Shown here one piece after another: positions 13,230 through 26,294 of a stretch of 38,168 nucleotides of DNA. Made by a program: the position numbers and the translations under genes. This stretch comes from Betaproteobacteria bacterium (GTDB lineage: Bacteria; Pseudomonadota; Gammaproteobacteria; Burkholderiales; Thiobacillaceae), in assembly GCA_020061585.1 (NCBI GenBank), contig JAGUXX010000051.1, positions 1 through 38,168 on the forward strand, written 5' to 3'. Position 1 is the stretch's first letter, and every line of letters starts with the position of its first letter. Under the pieces are notes generated by a model that saw nothing but the letters and a program-made list of their open reading frames with translations, made no database searches and was not told the DNA's origin.

Positions 13230-14507
13230 TCAATTGGTTCCTTGCCATGCCGGTTCCAGCATGGCCAGCGTGCGTTCGGTGGCGCCGCGATTGCGCTCGG
13301 CGAATGCCCTGCCGGAAGCGGCCATGACGGCCCGCCGGTCTGGATCGGCGCGCAATTCCGCCAGCGCCGAGGTCAGCGTTTCGCCATCCGCCACCCGCCA
13401 CGCCGCGCCGGCCGCCACGGCTTGTTCCGCCGCTTCGCTGAAGTTCCAGGTATGCGGACCGATCAGCGCCGGACAACCGGCCGCCGCCGCCTCGATCAGA
13501 TTCTGTCCGCCGAACGGCAGCAAACTGCCGCCGATGTAGGCCACGTCGGCGGCGGCGAAATAGCTGGCCATTTCGCCCATGCTGTCGCCCAGAAACAGCT
13601 TCACGTCTGGGGGCAGTGGCGTTGGGGACATGCTGTCGCCACGTCGTGCCCAAGGTTTTCCGCGCGCCTCGATCAGATCCGCGACTTCGGCGAACCTTTG
13701 CGGATGCCGCGGCACTAGAACCAGCAACAGATCTGGCAGATCGAGCCGCTCGAAGATATCGAGCAGCAGTTGCTCCTCGCCCTCGCGGGTGCTTGCGGCC
13801 AGCCATACGAAGCGCCGGCCGAACTGTTCGCGCAAGCGCGCGGCGCGGCGATCGGTGTCCGTCGGAGCGGCGACGTCGAACTTCAAATTGCCGGTGATGC
13901 GCGGCGCGTCGACGCCCAACGCGGCAAAGCGTGCCGCGTCATCCGCTGTTTGCGCGGCCAGGCCGCTCAGTGATTGCAAGGCGGGGGTGGCCAGTCGGCG
14001 AAAACGCGCATAGCCGCGCGCCGAGCGCGCGGACAGCCGCGCGTTGACCAGAAACAGCGGAATGGAATTCCGCTTGCAGGCGACGAACAGATTCGGCCAC
14101 AACTCGGTTTCCATGATCACCCCCATGTCGGGACGCGCGCGCCGCAGAAACAGCCAGATCAGCGGCGGAAAATCGTAGGGCAGATAGGCTTGTTCGAATC
14201 CTGGTCGGTCCTGACCGGCGAACAAGGACCGCCCGGTATCCCGTCCGGTCGGCGTGGTGTGGGTCAACAGTATCGCGCAATCCGGGTGCCGTGCTTGCCA
14301 GGCCGCGATCAACGGCGCGGCGGCGCGCGTCTCGCCGACCGAAACGGCGTGGATCCACAGCCGCGCGCCGCCGCGCCAGCGACGATGCCAGCCCAGCCGT
14401 TCCGGCCAATGGCGCAGGTAATCCGGCTGCCGCCGTGCCCGCCACAGCAGGTGCAGAAAGGCCAGCGGCAAGAACAGGAGCCAGACCAGGGAATAGATCA
14501 ATCGCAT
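13230..14507 (-). CDS. waaA: 3-deoxy-D-manno-octulosonic acid (KDO) transferase WaaA
   Basis: This 425-residue glycosyltransferase adds KDO residues to lipid A precursor at the cytoplasmic face of the inner membrane. An N-terminal hydrophobic helix (MRLIYSLVWLLFLPLAFLHL) anchors it. Family motifs are visible in order: WIHAVSVGETRAA with the catalytic Glu, LTHTTPTGRDTG, ETELWPNLF, VNARLSARSARGYARF, and GGSLLPFGGQNLIEAAAAG near the end. The length is normal. The start at 14507 is chosen over 14555 because the anchor helix begins there. It is divergent from the epimerase gene. Confidence 0.94.
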   Translation of the reverse strand: MRLIYSLVWLLFLPLAFLHLLWRARRQPDYLRHWPERLGWHRRWRGGARLWIHAVSVGETRAAAPLIAAWQARHPDCAILLTHTTPTGRDTGRSLFAGQDRPGFEQAYLPYDFPPLIWLFLRRARPDMGVIMETELWPNLFVACKRNSIPLFLVNARLSARSARGYARFRRLATPALQSLSGLAAQTADDAARFAALGVDAPRITGNLKFDVAAPTDTDRRAARLREQFGRRFVWLAASTREGEEQLLLDIFERLDLPDLLLVLVPRHPQRFAEVADLIEARGKPWARRGDSMSPTPLPPDVKLFLGDSMGEMASYFAAADVAYIGGSLLPFGGQNLIEAAAAGCPALIGPHTWNFSEAAEQAVAAGAAWRVADGETLTSALAELRADPDRRAVMAASGRAFAERNRGATERTLAMLEPAWQGTN

Positions 14508-14637
14508 GGGGCGGATGTTATTGAAGGCGCGTCGCGCTGTCTCGTTCAAGCGCATAGCCAGCCAGATGATGGATCAAATAGTGACATGCCGGGGGGCGGC
14601 GACTACCATTCGCCGGGTTCAAATCAGGGGAATCGTC

Positions 14638-16298: not shown

Positions 16299-16368
16299 GA
16301 TTATTCCCGCGTCTTAGGTCAAGTGAGTATAGCGGAGGCTTGCCGACTCGCATCCCGCTCCGCCGCAG

Positions 16369-16591
16369 CGGTTCTCGGTACGCCGGAGAGCGGAGTCGTT
16401 AGCGGCTCTGCCGCTTACAAATCCGGCCTCCCCCTTTGCGGGGATTCGTAAGGCGCTAAAGCGCCAACGACTCCGCTGCACCGGTTCTCGGTACGCCGGA
16501 GAGCGGAGTCGTTAGCGGCTCTGCCGCTTACGAATCCGGCCTCCCCCTTGCGGGGATTCGTAAGGCGCTAAAGCGCCAACGACTCCGCTGC
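16369..16591. repeat. Two tandem copies of a 111-bp palindromic repeat
   Basis: Copy 1 is 16369-16479 and copy 2 is 16482-16591, nearly identical. Each has outer arms GCGGAGTCGTT and AACGACTCCGC (copy 1: 16390-16400 and 16466-16476), nested arms TTACGAATCC / GGATTCGTAA (clean in copy 2), and two local hairpins, AGCGGCTCTGCCGCT and GGCGCTAAAGCGCC. The visible differences include a T present in copy 1 and missing in copy 2. There is no open frame. It fills the gap between the Uma2 gene and the FAD oxidoreductase, whose stop codon lies inside copy 2. Confidence 0.9.
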
Positions 16592-18707: not shown

Positions 18708-18838
18708 GGTGTTGAAAAACGCGAAATGGCTCAGAAATACGTCATGCCGGCGCAGGCCGGTATCCATAAGCCGTTGATATTGATCACGTCGCACTGGACC
18801 CCGGCCTTCGCCGGGGTGACGGTGTGTTTTTCAACACC
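18708..18838. mobile_element. 131-bp MITE-like element containing two REP-like arms
   Basis: The ends are perfect 13-bp inverted repeats, GGTGTTGAAAAAC (18708-18720) and GTTTTTCAACACC (18826-18838). Inside are two opposed 26-bp arms of the REP-like family: forward at 18741-18766 (core CCGGCGCAGGCCGG) and reverse at 18795-18820 (core CCCCGGCCTTCGCCGGGG). It has no open frame and no clear target duplication. GTTGAAAAACGCG recurs alone at 28871-28883, just after mgtE. It may be a non-autonomous element or a nested REP doublet. Confidence 0.65.
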
Positions 18839-22083: not shown

Positions 22084-22106
22084 AAACTGTTCTAGGGGGA
22101 GCCGCA

Positions 22107-25100
22107 ATGACCGCTTATCTCAATCTCGACGGCAACGAAGCCGCCGCGCGCATGGCTTATCAATGCAATGAAGTGATCGCGATCTATCCGATCACGCCGT
22201 CGTCCAACATGGGCGAGTGGGCCGACGAATGGGCCGCGCAGGACAAACCGAACCTGTGGGGGGCGACGCCGAAGATCATCGAGATGCAGTCGGAAGGCGG
22301 CGCGGCGGGCGCGCTGCACGGCGCGCTGACCGCCGGCGCGCTGGCCAGCAGTTTTACCGCCAGCCAGGGTTTGCTGTTGTTCATCCCGAATCTGTACAAG
22401 ATCGCCGGCGAGTTGACGCCGTTCGTGCTGCACGTGGCGGCGCGGGCGGTGGCAACGCATGCGCTGTCGATCTTCGGCGATCATTCCGATGTGATGGCCT
22501 GTCGCGCCACCGGCTGCGCCCTGTTGTGCGCCAATTCGGTGCAGGAGGCGCAGGACTTCGCGTTGATCGCCCAGGCCGCGACACTGGCCGGGCGGATACC
22601 GGTAATCCATTTCTTCGACGGCTTCCGGACCTCGCATGAAGTCGCCAAGATCGTCGCCGTCGAGCCGGATACCGTGCGCGCCATGATCGACGACCGTCTG
22701 GTCGCCGCGCATCGGGCGCGGGCGCTGTCGCCGGAACATCCGGTGCTGCGCGGCACCTCGCAGAATCCGGACGTGTTCTTCCAATCGCGCGAGCGGGCGA
22801 ATCCGTTCTACGCCGCTTTTCCCGAGTTGATGCAGGACGCGATGGATCGCTTCGCCGAACTGACCGGGCGTCAATACCGACTGTTCGAGTATGTCGGCGC
22901 CGTCGATGCCGAGCGGGTCATCGTGCTGATGGGTTCCGGCGCGGAAACCGTCGAGGAAACCGTGCAACATCTGACCGCCCGCGGCGACAAGGTCGGTGTG
23001 CTGAAGGTGCGGCTGTTTCGGCCGTTCGCGCCGGCGGCGCTGCTGGACGCGTTGCCGGCCAGCATCAAGGCGGTCGCCGTGCTCGACCGCTGCAAGGAGC
23101 CCGGCGCCGATGGCGAACCGCTCTACAAGGATGTCATCACCGCGCTGGCACAGGCGACCATCGACGCGACGCGGACCATGCCGAAAGTCATCGGCGGCCG
23201 TTACGGTCTGGGCAGCAAGGAATTCACGCCGGGCATGGTGGCGGCGGTGTTCGCCGAACTGGCGCGGCCGGCGCCGAAGCGCGAATTCACTATCGGCATC
23301 CACGATGACATCACCCAGCTTTCGCTGGACTGGGATGCTGTTTTGCGCACTGACGCCGCGCGCGCTTTGCACCATGCGGTGTTCTGGGGCCTGGGCGCGG
23401 ACGGCACGGTGTCGGCCAACAAGAATTCGATCAAGATCGTCGGCGAGGCGACCGACCTGCATACCCAAGGCTATTTCGTATACGACTCGAAGAAGTCCGG
23501 CGCGGTGACCGTCTCGCATCTGCGCTTCGGTCCCGCCGCGATTCGTTCGACCTATCTGATCGAGACCGGCATGGCCGACTTCGTCGCCTGTCATCAGACC
23601 GTGTTCACCGAACGCTATGACCTGCTGGCGCAGGCCGCGCCGGGCGGTGTGTTTCTGCTCAACACGCCGGCGTCGGCGGATGCCGTGTGGGCGACCTTGC
23701 CGGAGACCCTGCGCGCGCAAATCGTCGACAAGCGGCTGCGGTTCTGGGTCATCGACGCCTATGCCGTCGCCGAGGCGGCCGGCATGGGGCGGCGCATCAA
23801 CACCATCATGCAGACCTGTTTCTTCGCCATCTCCGGCATCCTGCCGCGTGAACAGGCGATCGCCGCGATCAAGCGGGCGGTGGACAAGACCTACGGCAAG
23901 AAGAGCAAGCGGCTGGCGGATTTGAACTACGCGGCGATCGACAAGACGCTGGAAAATCTGCATCAGGTTACTTTATCCCGTCACCCCGGCGAATGCCGGG
24001 GTCCAGGGGATGTACCGATGAACTGGACCCCGGCCTACGCCGGGGTGACAGCGCTTCCCGACTTCGTGCGCGACGTCACGCTGCCGATCTACTCCGGCAA
24101 AGGCGACGAATTGCCAGTGTCGTTGATGCCGGTCGACGGCACCTTCCCGGTCGGTACCGCGCAATACGAGAAACGCAACATCGCGCTGGAAATCCCGGTC
24201 TGGGAAGCCGATCTGTGTACCCAATGCGGCAAGTGCGTGTTCGTCTGCCCGCATTCGGCGATCCGTTCGCGGGCGTTCGCCGCGGAAGCCGCCAACGGCG
24301 CGCCGACCACCTTCAAACATGCGCCGGCGAAGAGCAAGGACTTCCCGGCCGGCACCCACATCAGCTACCAGGTCGCGCCGGAAGACTGCACAGGTTGCGG
24401 CGATTGCGTCGAAGCCTGCCCGATCCACGACAAATCCAACCTCAGTCGGCGCGCCGTCAACATGGCGCCGCAGGCGCCGCTGCGCGAGGCGGAACGCGAC
24501 AACTACGCGTTCTTTCTGGCGCTGCCCGAGTTCGACCGCGGCGCGTTGAAACACACCACGATACCCGGCTCGATGCTGCTCGATCCGCTATTCGAATATT
24601 CCGGCGCCTGTGCCGGCTGCGGCGAGACGCCCTACATCCGACTGGCGACGCAGTTGTTCGGCGATCGCATGCTGATCGCCAACGCCACTGGTTGCTCGTC
24701 GATCTACGGCGGCAACCTGCCGACCACGCCGTACACCGTCAACGGCGCCGGACGCGGTCCGGCCTGGAGCAATTCGCTGTTCGAGGACAACGCCGAATTC
24801 GGCCTGGGCATGCGCCTGGCGGCGGATCAGTTGATGGGGTATGCGAAGCAGTTGGTGAAGGAATTGGCCGGCGATATCGGCGGCGATCTGGCGGTTGAAC
24901 TGGCCGAAGCCGATCAGCGCGAGGAGGCCGGCTTGCATGCGCAACGCCACCGGGTGGCGCTGCTGCTGGAAAAACTGGCAAGCGCCAACCACCCACGCGC
25001 CGCGGAACTCGCCAGCGTCGCCGAGTGGCTGATCCGTCGCTCGGTGTGGATCATCGGCGGCGATGGCTGGGCCTACGACATCGGCTACGGCGGCCTCGAT

Positions 25101-25712
25101 CATGTGCTGGCGCTGCCCTATGACGTCAACATCCTGGTGCTGGATACCGAGGTGTATTCCAACACCGGCGGCCAGACCTCCAAGGCGACGCCGCTCGGCG
25201 CGGTGGCCAAGTTCTCCGCCGGCGGCAAGGCGACGGCGAAGAAGGATCTCGGCAAACTGGCCAGCGATTATGGTCATGTCTATGTCGCCAACGTCGCCTA
25301 CGGCGCCAAGGACACGCAGACCCTGCGCGTGTTCCACGAGGCCGAGGCGTATGACGGCCCGTCGCTGATCGTCGCCTACAGCCCATGCATCGCGCACGGC
25401 TACGACATGCTCTACAACCAGCGCCAGCAGGATATGGCGGTGAAAACCGGCCATTGGCCGCTGTTCCGCTTTGACCCGCGTCTGGCGTCGGCCGGCGGCA
25501 ACCCGTTCAAACTCGATTCCGCCGCGCCGAGTCGGCCGATCAAGGATTTCATGGACAGCGAAACCCGCTTCGCGATGCTGAACCGCAGTCATCCCGAGGC
25601 CGCGCAAGCGTTCCTGGAGCAGGCGCAGAAAGATGCCGAACGGCGTTTCAAGGCTTACCAGGAATTGGCTGCCGATCGTCATGCCAGTGCGGGCCAGAAT
25701 CCAGAGAAATGA
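22107..25712 (+). CDS. nifJ: Pyruvate:ferredoxin (flavodoxin) oxidoreductase, single-chain
   Basis: The 1201-residue enzyme oxidatively decarboxylates pyruvate to acetyl-CoA, passing electrons to ferredoxin or flavodoxin. The N-terminal domain has LDGNEAAARMAYQCNEVIAI and YPITPSS; the gamma-like domain (about 415-610) contains GLGADGTVSANKNSIKI. Two [4Fe-4S] motifs follow, CTQCGKCVFVCPHS (about 704) and CTGCGDCVEACPIH (about 761). The TPP domain has CAGCGETPY (about 835) and GGDGWAYDIGYGG (about 983). AGGGGGAG precedes the ATG at 22107. Residues about 625-648 are a translated REP-like palindrome, described separately; the rest is complete and the frame stays open, so it may be active. It is divergent from ntrB; the stop overlaps a GIY-YIG remnant. 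Confidence 0.95.
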   Translation: MTAYLNLDGNEAAARMAYQCNEVIAIYPITPSSNMGEWADEWAAQDKPNLWGATPKIIEMQSEGGAAGALHGALTAGALASSFTASQGLLLFIPNLYKIAGELTPFVLHVAARAVATHALSIFGDHSDVMACRATGCALLCANSVQEAQDFALIAQAATLAGRIPVIHFFDGFRTSHEVAKIVAVEPDTVRAMIDDRLVAAHRARALSPEHPVLRGTSQNPDVFFQSRERANPFYAAFPELMQDAMDRFAELTGRQYRLFEYVGAVDAERVIVLMGSGAETVEETVQHLTARGDKVGVLKVRLFRPFAPAALLDALPASIKAVAVLDRCKEPGADGEPLYKDVITALAQATIDATRTMPKVIGGRYGLGSKEFTPGMVAAVFAELARPAPKREFTIGIHDDITQLSLDWDAVLRTDAARALHHAVFWGLGADGTVSANKNSIKIVGEATDLHTQGYFVYDSKKSGAVTVSHLRFGPAAIRSTYLIETGMADFVACHQTVFTERYDLLAQAAPGGVFLLNTPASADAVWATLPETLRAQIVDKRLRFWVIDAYAVAEAAGMGRRINTIMQTCFFAISGILPREQAIAAIKRAVDKTYGKKSKRLADLNYAAIDKTLENLHQVTLSRHPGECRGPGDVPMNWTPAYAGVTALPDFVRDVTLPIYSGKGDELPVSLMPVDGTFPVGTAQYEKRNIALEIPVWEADLCTQCGKCVFVCPHSAIRSRAFAAEAANGAPTTFKHAPAKSKDFPAGTHISYQVAPEDCTGCGDCVEACPIHDKSNLSRRAVNMAPQAPLREAERDNYAFFLALPEFDRGALKHTTIPGSMLLDPLFEYSGACAGCGETPYIRLATQLFGDRMLIANATGCSSIYGGNLPTTPYTVNGAGRGPAWSNSLFEDNAEFGLGMRLAADQLMGYAKQLVKELAGDIGGDLAVELAEADQREEAGLHAQRHRVALLLEKLASANHPRAAELASVAEWLIRRSVWIIGGDGWAYDIGYGGLDHVLALPYDVNILVLDTEVYSNTGGQTSKATPLGAVAKFSAGGKATAKKDLGKLASDYGHVYVANVAYGAKDTQTLRVFHEAEAYDGPSLIVAYSPCIAHGYDMLYNQRQQDMAVKTGHWPLFRFDPRLASAGGNPFKLDSAAPSRPIKDFMDSETRFAMLNRSHPEAAQAFLEQAQKDAERRFKAYQELAADRHASAGQNPEK
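23980..24049. repeat. REP-like palindrome doublet inside nifJ
   Basis: A forward arm at 23980-24005 (core CCCCGGCGAATGCCGGGG) and a reverse arm at 24024-24049 (core CCCCGGCCTACGCCGGGG) are separated by 18 bp. Both are of the family also seen at 18.7 kb and 26.0 kb. The reading frame passes through without a stop and encodes RHPGECRGPG, then NWTPAYAGVT. It falls between the gamma-like and ferredoxin-like domains, where a linker is expected. Confidence 0.9.
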
Positions 25713-25991
25713 AACAACCTTGTGTCTATATGCTCGCCAGTCAGCGAAACGGCACGCTATACATCGGCGTCACCTCCGACCTGATCAAACGCGTTTGGGA
25801 ACACAAGCAGGATTTGGCCGATGGCTTTACCAAGAAATATGGCGTGCATACCCTGGTGTGAAATGCATGAAGACATGATGTGTGCAATAGCACGCGAAAA
25901 AGCCCTGAAAGAATGGAAACGCGCTTGGAAATTGGCATTGATCGAGAAAGCCAATCCGCTATGGAAGGATTTATATGATGATCTTTTGTAG
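25709..25991 (+). pseudogene. GIY-YIG endonuclease domain gene, frameshifted
   Basis: The start ATG overlaps the nifJ stop (ATGA). The first 50 codons read KQPCVYMLASQRNGTLYIGV, then TSDLIKRVWEHKQDLADGFT and KKYGVHTLV before a TGA at 25859-25861. The GIY-YIG signature appears as VYML and LYIG. One frame over, from 25860, the family resumes with EMHEDMMCAIAREKALKEWK and continues through WKLALIEKANPLWKDLY to a TAG at 25989-25991. About five bases appear to be missing at the break (expected W-Y before E-M-H). The intact product would be about 95 residues, a small UPF0213/YhbQ-like nuclease. REP-like arms begin 4 bp past its end. Confidence 0.88.
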
Positions 25992-25995
25992 CCGC

Positions 25996-26294
25996 TGGAT
26001 ACCGGCCTACGCCGGTAAGACGGGTATGACGGGTATGACGACAATGACCCCGTCACCCCGGCGAAGGCCGGGGTCCAGTGCGTTGGTCGGTGCACGCGTA
26101 GAGCGCAACGGTTGTCACCAGATCAACGCGCGCCGCTCGATACCGGCATTCGCCGGTAAGACGGGTATGACGACAATGACCTCGTCACCCCGGCGAAGGC
26201 CGGGGTCCAGTGCGTGGGTCGAAGCAAGCGTGGCGTGCAGCGGTTGTCAGCCAATCAACGCGCGCCACTGGATACCGGCATACGCCGGTATGAC
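25996..26294. repeat. Tandem array of REP-like palindromes (five arms)
   Basis: Five 26-bp arms alternate in orientation: reverse 25996-26021, forward 26052-26077, reverse 26137-26162, forward 26184-26209, reverse 26269-26294. The array is also a direct repeat with starts at 25991, 26132 and 26264 (141 and 132 bp apart). The first unit has an extra copy of GGGTATGAC. Internal sequence such as CGGTTGTCA and ATCAACGCGCGCC is also shared between units, so whole units were duplicated. It fills the space between the GIY-YIG remnant and the dihydroorotate-dehydrogenase-like gene and encodes nothing I can support. Confidence 0.9.

Follow-up and report, generated by a model that had tools for sequence, protein, structure and literature searches.

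The question raised by this locus is how a palindromic repeat comes to lie in frame inside the gene of a key metabolic enzyme, and whether its presence there is a single accident or one instance of a recurring process. The window, by which we mean the whole stretch of 38,168 nt that was analysed, contains a nifJ gene whose product matches the family model TIGR02176 with 1677.6 bits over residues 7-1189 (cut-off 911.35), i.e. over its full length, and the PDB entries 6cin, 1b0p and 7plm at E=0; the family, Pfam and PDB matches together give the domain order of a full-length single-chain PFOR. The nearest named matches of this gene are in Thiobacillus, Zoogloea and Burkholderiales contigs. The features of the gene needed for what follows are these (F1 is one of our repeat family labels).

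22104-25712, plus strand: nifJ, pyruvate:ferredoxin (flavodoxin) oxidoreductase, 1202 aa (TIGR02176; PDB matches)
23253-23285, plus strand: second site, about residues 384-394, between PFOR_II and POR, empty in the window (from relatives)
23394-23948, plus strand: POR domain PF01558 (gamma part), residues 431-615 (Pfam match)
23964-24056, plus strand: linker of 93 nt or 31 codons, filled by different palindromic repeats in relatives (alignment of relatives)
23979-24051, no strand assigned: dimer of F1, by anatomy a CGTC-type REP, with end tags outward and tails inward (repeat search, fold)
23980-24006, plus strand: left arm, predicted translation RHPGECRGP
24023-24049, minus strand: right arm (inverted), predicted translation WTPAYAGVT
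24051-24185, plus strand: EKR domain PF10371, residues 650-694 (Pfam match)

The arms of the dimer are 27 nt each, 93% complementary and spaced 16 nt apart; its left unit begins with CGTC at 23979 and its right unit begins with TGTC on the opposite strand. An 8-bp stem with a 4-nt loop can be read in the sequence of each unit (ACCCCGGC-GAAT-GCCGGGGT and ACCCCGGC-GTAG-GCCGGGGT), and both units end in TCCAG, the CCA-type unpaired tail. By this anatomy (viz. end tag, stem, loop, tail and dispersed copies) the element is, as judged from its sequence, a dimer of a short, non-autonomous CGTC-1 REP, whose first two stem pairs in the window are A-T and C-G, whereas the description of CGTC-1 has A/T "almost invariably" at both positions. 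The first-pass annotation had placed the doublet at 23980-24049, and the arms do lie there, but the full dimer with its end tags occupies 23979-24051. These 73 nt fold at -57.4 kcal/mol, and a 100-nt folding window on the linker gives z = -6.3 (200 dinucleotide shuffles), with none of the 67 other folding windows in nifJ being as stable. The consensus F1 unit is open in 5 of the 6 reading frames and the whole linker of the window in only 2 of 6; the predicted frame, in which the annotated peptide RHPGECRGP...NWTPAYAGVT is read without a stop, is confirmed inside the full-length gene.

The repeat sits between POR and EKR, ahead of the 4Fe-4S domains, and the earlier proposal that it occupies a linker between the pyruvate-site and ferredoxin-like parts is borne out by the end of POR at residue 615 and the start of EKR at residue 650. 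Family matches end or begin at residues 389 (alpha), 426-612 (gamma) and 695 (delta), and both sites in nifJ that are filled by repeats, in the window or in its relatives, are borders of parts that elsewhere are separate subunits. That the insert might instead lie in a buried core segment was addressed by modelling. In an AlphaFold model of residues 398-840 (mean pLDDT 87.7; 69 of the 108 open sequences found were aligned as input), the linker forms the lowest internal blocks, with pLDDT of 51 and 52 next to neighbours of 88 and 83, and only the C-terminal end is equally low, which in this model fits an exposed flexible joint. The linker is shorter at the same place in the solved PFORs 6cin and 1b0p. 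The linker peptide is most likely a passive filler, and a NifJ protein carrying the repeat is most likely still active.

If the insertion were peculiar to the nifJ gene of the window, then the same linker in related nifJ genes should lack such elements. The genus search covered 23 genomes, 20 of which have a close nifJ gene (G005, G012 and G017 gave weak matches only). None of these 20 genes has a stop codon in the 242 residues searched around the linker, and in 16 of them residues 621-651 hold a repeat with a match in the linker of a different nifJ gene, so that the repeat of the window is far from being a one-off. These repeats belong to five unrelated families: F1 in the window's own genome (G000), in G015 and, decayed, in G001; F2 in G013 and G019; F3 in G006, G016 and G021, where it is joined to F2 in a mosaic; F4 in G011, G020, G022, G018, G009 and G008; and F5 in G007 and G002. 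The linker of G004 is palindrome-like (F6) and was matched by itself only; F6 was left out of the family count because, across 200 kb of G004, its core was matched solely in the stretch containing nifJ itself. In the linkers of G014, G003 and G010 sequence matching among the 20 genes found no match to another nifJ linker, and those of G014 and G010 may, by eye, hold decayed copies. The alternative that relatives devoid of the repeat would show the same residues at this place is borne out at most in part, by one of them: those without a matching repeat mostly differ, but G014 has VPMN and PAG in common with the window and is read as a decayed copy.

Outside the genus, F1 was recognised by eye in the same linker of G030 and of the Thiobacillus contigs L093 and L041 (decayed). 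The left arm of F1 is read as RHPG in the window and as VIPA in G030, G015 and L093, and this difference of frame indicates that no conserved peptide is involved. At the second site (residues 386-394) F2 is present in 5 of the 20 congeneric genes (G006, G008, G015, G020 and G022), and elsewhere in these 20 genes, outside the two inter-domain sites, no repeat match was found. In G015 (L036, 3920-3960) the F2 copy at the second site is accompanied by a frame shift that splits nifJ at the alpha/gamma border, which is either an assembly error or a real split. In G029 (L040) nifJ is divided between two contigs at the linker (residues 1-629 and 649-1190), and such a break would be expected if an unassembled repeat sits there.

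The length of the linker shows that its older content has also been altered. Residues 622-651 amount to 30 residues in the window. Among 75 further loci (L046 and above, including three from near relatives) the same interval is 21 residues long in 55 and 20-26 residues long in 72. The F1 dimer alone adds about 24 residues, yet the net gain of the window's linker is only about 9, and therefore much of the older linker has been lost; the event was not the simple net insertion that had been assumed. The three longer linkers are those of L089, L117 and L100. In L089 (Nostoc) the linker holds a tandem repeat of GGGGACT in frame, in L117 (Nostoc) it holds, in frame, a dispersed cyanobacterial palindrome that gave 67 matches when searched against the genome it comes from, and in L100 no repeat is evident. 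A PFOR linker of near-fixed length in most other bacteria sampled can thus be rewritten.

In G000 (4.59 Mb in 336 contigs, 93.5% complete) a 111-nt F1 query gave 83 matches (E<=0.001, strands counted apart), and a scan of the window together with 37 fetched stretches covered 46 F1 sites. By codon score three of the 46, in nifJ, in ureF and in an sbcC-like gene, are in frame within genes with coding sequence on both sides; the copies are dispersed and mostly intergenic. Those in the window, found by repeat search, are as follows.

18741-18820, no strand assigned: intergenic F1 copies
25996-26077, no strand assigned: intergenic F1 copies
26184-26294, no strand assigned: intergenic F1 copies

The annotation of the doublet as REP-like and as belonging to one family with the arrays nearby is thus supported by matching copies at 18.79 and 26.05-26.29 kb. 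An array of another palindromic repeat, unlike F1, with direct copies 112-113 nt apart and inverted arms of 36 nt, occupies 16358-16591, and a strong inverted repeat at 14309-14382 lies within a minus-strand open frame (13230-14555). A GIY-YIG nuclease-like frame at 25709-25991 (PF01541, first 50 codons), whose start overlaps the nifJ stop codon and which is broken near 25860, directly precedes the repeat array at 26.0 kb; the piece past 25860 has no Pfam match, and we take it to resemble the end of a GIY-YIG protein in another frame.

The ureF gene (PF01730) was found in 6 of the 23 genomes. A loop of it carries two F1 dimers in G000, one F1 in G002 and, by eye, an F2-like repeat in G019, and no repeat in G014, G016 or G010; the loop region is without stops in the compared genomes. 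This loop thus behaves as the nifJ linker does, and nifJ is likely the most extreme case of a tendency that is more widespread in the genus. In the sbcC-like gene (PF13558; L172, 1504-1577 in G000) an in-frame F1 palindrome occupies one same site in G000 and G002, the two genomes compared. Known SbcC relatives cut DNA hairpins. Of other families, an F2 repeat lies in frame in an HsdM-like methylase gene of G006 (L199, 12501-12553), and an F3 repeat in an aminotransferase gene of G020 (L188, 5376-5478), which we take to be bioF-like, coincides with a change of reading frame at which the gene looks broken.

The families F1 to F5 are dispersed through the genus and for the most part common in the genomes concerned. 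With strands counted apart, and as lower bounds from about 40 candidates scored per genome, F1 has at least 82 matches in G000; F2 has at least 52 matches in G013 and at least 19 in G019; F3 at least 101 in G016, 85 in G006 and 75 in G021; F4 at least 89 in G011, 77 in G020, 31 in G022, 29 in G018, 7 in G009 and 2 in G008; and F5 at least 61 in G007. F5 has 2 matches in G002, both of which are its nifJ copy, F1 has at least 4 in G015, and with the window's copy as query F1 had no match among the candidates scored in G001. Eleven of the 16 repeat-bearing genes therefore lie in genomes where their linker family is common; in the genomes of the other 5 (G015, G009, G008, G002 and G001) few copies of the family, or none outside nifJ, were found.

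The occupancy of the linker was compared with a background of separate non-coding 90-nt windows from 40 stretches of 20 kb in 12 of these genomes. Repeats of these families were present in 17 of 651 such windows (17 of 463 without G004, whose 188 windows gave no match), and in the fullest genome, G006, in 8 of 62. The comparison of 16/20 with 17/651 gives a Fisher p of 8e-20, which is only a guide, as the genes share ancestry; this ancestry, and the fact that non-coding DNA is itself partly constrained, mean that the excess is overstated. An earlier count, based on 20 stretches and on windows that overlapped, was 44 of 901. The background repeat sites numbered 31 in non-coding DNA and 8 in DNA called coding, some of the 8 being doubtful gene calls.

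We consider it probable that these results reflect a permissive nifJ linker in which dispersed palindromic repeats are turned over rapidly and in frame. Under this explanation palindromic repeats would land often, by means of whichever machinery moves the family in question; those that fall in folded domains or break the frame would mostly be lost by selection; the linker would accept nearly any peptide of about 25-40 residues that contains no stop; and the older repeat or linker DNA would be deleted upon the arrival of a new repeat, because the linker cannot grow without limit. The nifJ linker appears to be a place where selfish DNA has landed repeatedly, in a gene that stays open. Several findings count against this explanation: neither a target duplication nor an insertion event was directly seen in these linkers; one of the five second-site repeats (that of G015) has a frame shift; in five genomes few copies of the linker family, or none outside nifJ, were found, as given above; and the occupancy exceeds what tolerance alone would lead one to expect, even in comparison with G006. 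The high occupancy by itself is compatible with frequent landing, selection or attraction alike.

The turnover is apparent between sister genes. In a tree of 37 nifJ proteins, made with the variable sites removed and leaving out the duplicates L043 (of G009) and L109 (of G010) and the partial genes of G025 and G029, the sister genes of G013 and G007 (support 0.998; 150-nt flanks 97 and 99% identical) carry F2 and F5, respectively, and those of G006 and G020 (support 0.957; flanks 97 and 95% identical) carry F3 and F4. The linkers of these two pairs give no convincing alignment and have no alignable remnants. The sisters G021 and G015 (support 1.0) carry F3 with F2 and F1, and G004 and G002 (support 0.755) carry F6 and F5. 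As near-identical sister genes have different families, the content has been swapped, not stacked. By parsimony the linker state changed 12 to 15 times on the 37-gene tree, depending on how decayed copies are counted, a number that rests, like the labels on the tree, on family assignments (F1-F6) and marks of decay made by eye and on a tree with several weak nodes (0.11-0.62).

If an existing palindrome attracts its own replacement, by hairpin breakage or transposase targeting, then the site would be self-perpetuating, and near-identical flanks with different contents lacking alignable remnants, the F3/F2 mosaic linker of G021 and the two F1 dimers in one ureF loop are all as one would expect. 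However, no breakpoint or intermediate was seen in these sequences, and ordinary insertion followed by deletion would look alike; we regard such attraction as unlikely. It is compatible with the permissive linker and would add to it a cause for the high occupancy. A bolder proposal, viz. that ancient inter-subunit joints of a fused enzyme are self-perpetuating docking sites for selfish palindromic DNA, where a resident palindrome would provoke its replacement by the active family of each lineage and the linker would change from one sister species to the next, in two phyla or more, is put forward here tentatively, as an idea with a small chance of being right.

The recurrence of families in separate branches (F2 in G013 and G019, F5 in G007 and G002) could also arise if species exchange linkers as cassettes by recombination in the conserved flanks, in which case a few insertions would have spread widely, and the restriction of F5 in G002 to nifJ is in keeping with this. 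However, when identity along nifJ was followed in 200-column windows it was mostly >0.9 in both the G013/G007 and G006/G020 pairs, falling at the repeat sites and beyond the ends of the gene, and neither pair has a tract of raised identity around the linker (very short tracts would escape notice); 11 of the 16 genomes, moreover, hold many copies of the family present in their linker. Cassette exchange is on these grounds distinctly unlikely.

A further suggestion is that selection retains the hairpin for a role in the nifJ mRNA, for instance in pausing ribosomes or blocking RNases at the gamma-delta border, which any palindrome could fill. The occupancy far above background and the confinement of repeats to two inter-domain sites agree with this suggestion, and in dinucleotide shuffles 11 of the 16 repeat-bearing linkers fold beyond chance (z of -3.4 to -10.1). 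The other five, however, give z values of -1.8 (G016, G021 and G018), 0.7 (G001) and 1.5 (G008), where the fixed 100-nt folding window may have cut stems, and the 11 linkers labelled repeat-free (G010 being perhaps decayed) range from -2.4 to 1.1, so that no stem is evident in these genes. In G001 and G008 the repeat does not fold beyond chance and yet the frame stays open, and this spread in folding, with the frame always kept, argues, together with the different frames in which the F1 left arm is read, against conservation of a peptide and against a strict need for the hairpin. A hairpin selected for itself was a candidate suggested by raw energies and was set aside when dinucleotide shuffles removed most of the signal; by raw energy the GC-rich, repeat-free linkers of G024, G003, G023 and L045 likewise rank within the lowest 1% of 8000 random windows. 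A strict hairpin finder that required ungapped arms of 20 nt identified 6 of 19 congeneric linkers (G000, G002, G007, G006, G011 and G020), together with 45 hairpins across 400 kb of background, and because it disallows bulges, sequence matching was used in its place. A function of the hairpin in the mRNA appears quite improbable. An assembly artefact or a dead gene, which the 336-contig assembly of the window and the frame shift at the second site of G015 might suggest, is hardly credible in view of the stop-free linker region in 20 of 20 congeneric genes, the full-length family score and the recurrence of the pattern across many separate assemblies.

As regards the movers of the families, 6 of the 30 loci fetched (L254, L257, L262, L264, L266 and L268) have a Y1_Tnp (RAYT) gene flanked by F4 on either side, and with its GTAG end and RAYT-flanking position F4 is likely mobilised by a RAYT transposase. 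F5 and F6 also begin with GTAG, and no F5 copy was found beside RAYT genes in the 30 loci fetched. For F1 a RAYT mover was considered and rejected, as the search of the 93.5%-complete genome G000 gave no match to PF01797 (Y1_Tnp).

REPs and RPEs read in frame have so far been known as isolated curiosities, and the nifJ linker is, by comparison, a repeated natural experiment, in which the insertion, deletion and tolerance of palindromes inside proteins could be measured, and which could help in asking what mobilises CGTC REPs and whether a palindrome attracts the next one. According to the available portions of Di Nocera, De Gregorio and Rocco 2013 (PMC3733652), a CGTC-1 REP has a CGTC (or TGTC, CCTC) end, an 8-bp stem, a 4-nt loop and a CCA tail; CGTC REPs form dimers and are mostly intergenic, sometimes inside genes; they are apparently without a dedicated transposase; and different REPs occur at about the same recB site in two Xanthomonas species. 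The element of the window resembles them in end, stem, loop, tail, dimers and mostly intergenic copies. "Thiobacillus" is absent from the main text of PMC3733652, and what is available of that paper describes neither a linker filled by five families across a genus nor swaps between sister species. The GTAG REPs with RAYT genes in the same source are like F4 in their GTAG end and Y1_Tnp flanking, whereas the window's element is of CGTC type in a genome that gave no PF01797 match. Neisseria dRS3, as presented there, is of the same CGTC-1 class by anatomy, and the window's element differs from it in host and in its in-frame position within a gene.

Among the matches listed in our literature search, in so far as their text was available, there was no published report of a nifJ linker filled by palindromic repeats. 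The Rickettsia RPEs, as given in the available parts of PMC10969869 and PMC2229807, are palindromic elements of about 105-150 bp that are translated in frame in conserved genes, and a guanylate kinase with an RPE insert is active (PMC2229807). The kinship with these translated elements suggested by the first-pass annotation is upheld, as far as these sources go, by the in-frame palindrome in a conserved gene and by the short RPE-6 class, RPE-6 and RPE-4 being equated with CGTC-1 and CGTC-4 in PMC3733652. The nifJ element is like the RPEs in its predicted in-frame translation within a conserved gene, and unlike them in its host, in its dimer length of 73 bp and in the convergence of unrelated families on one linker. 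Based on the portions of these papers at hand, the in-frame palindrome is of a known kind, and the recurrence of unrelated families at one linker goes beyond the published cases found.
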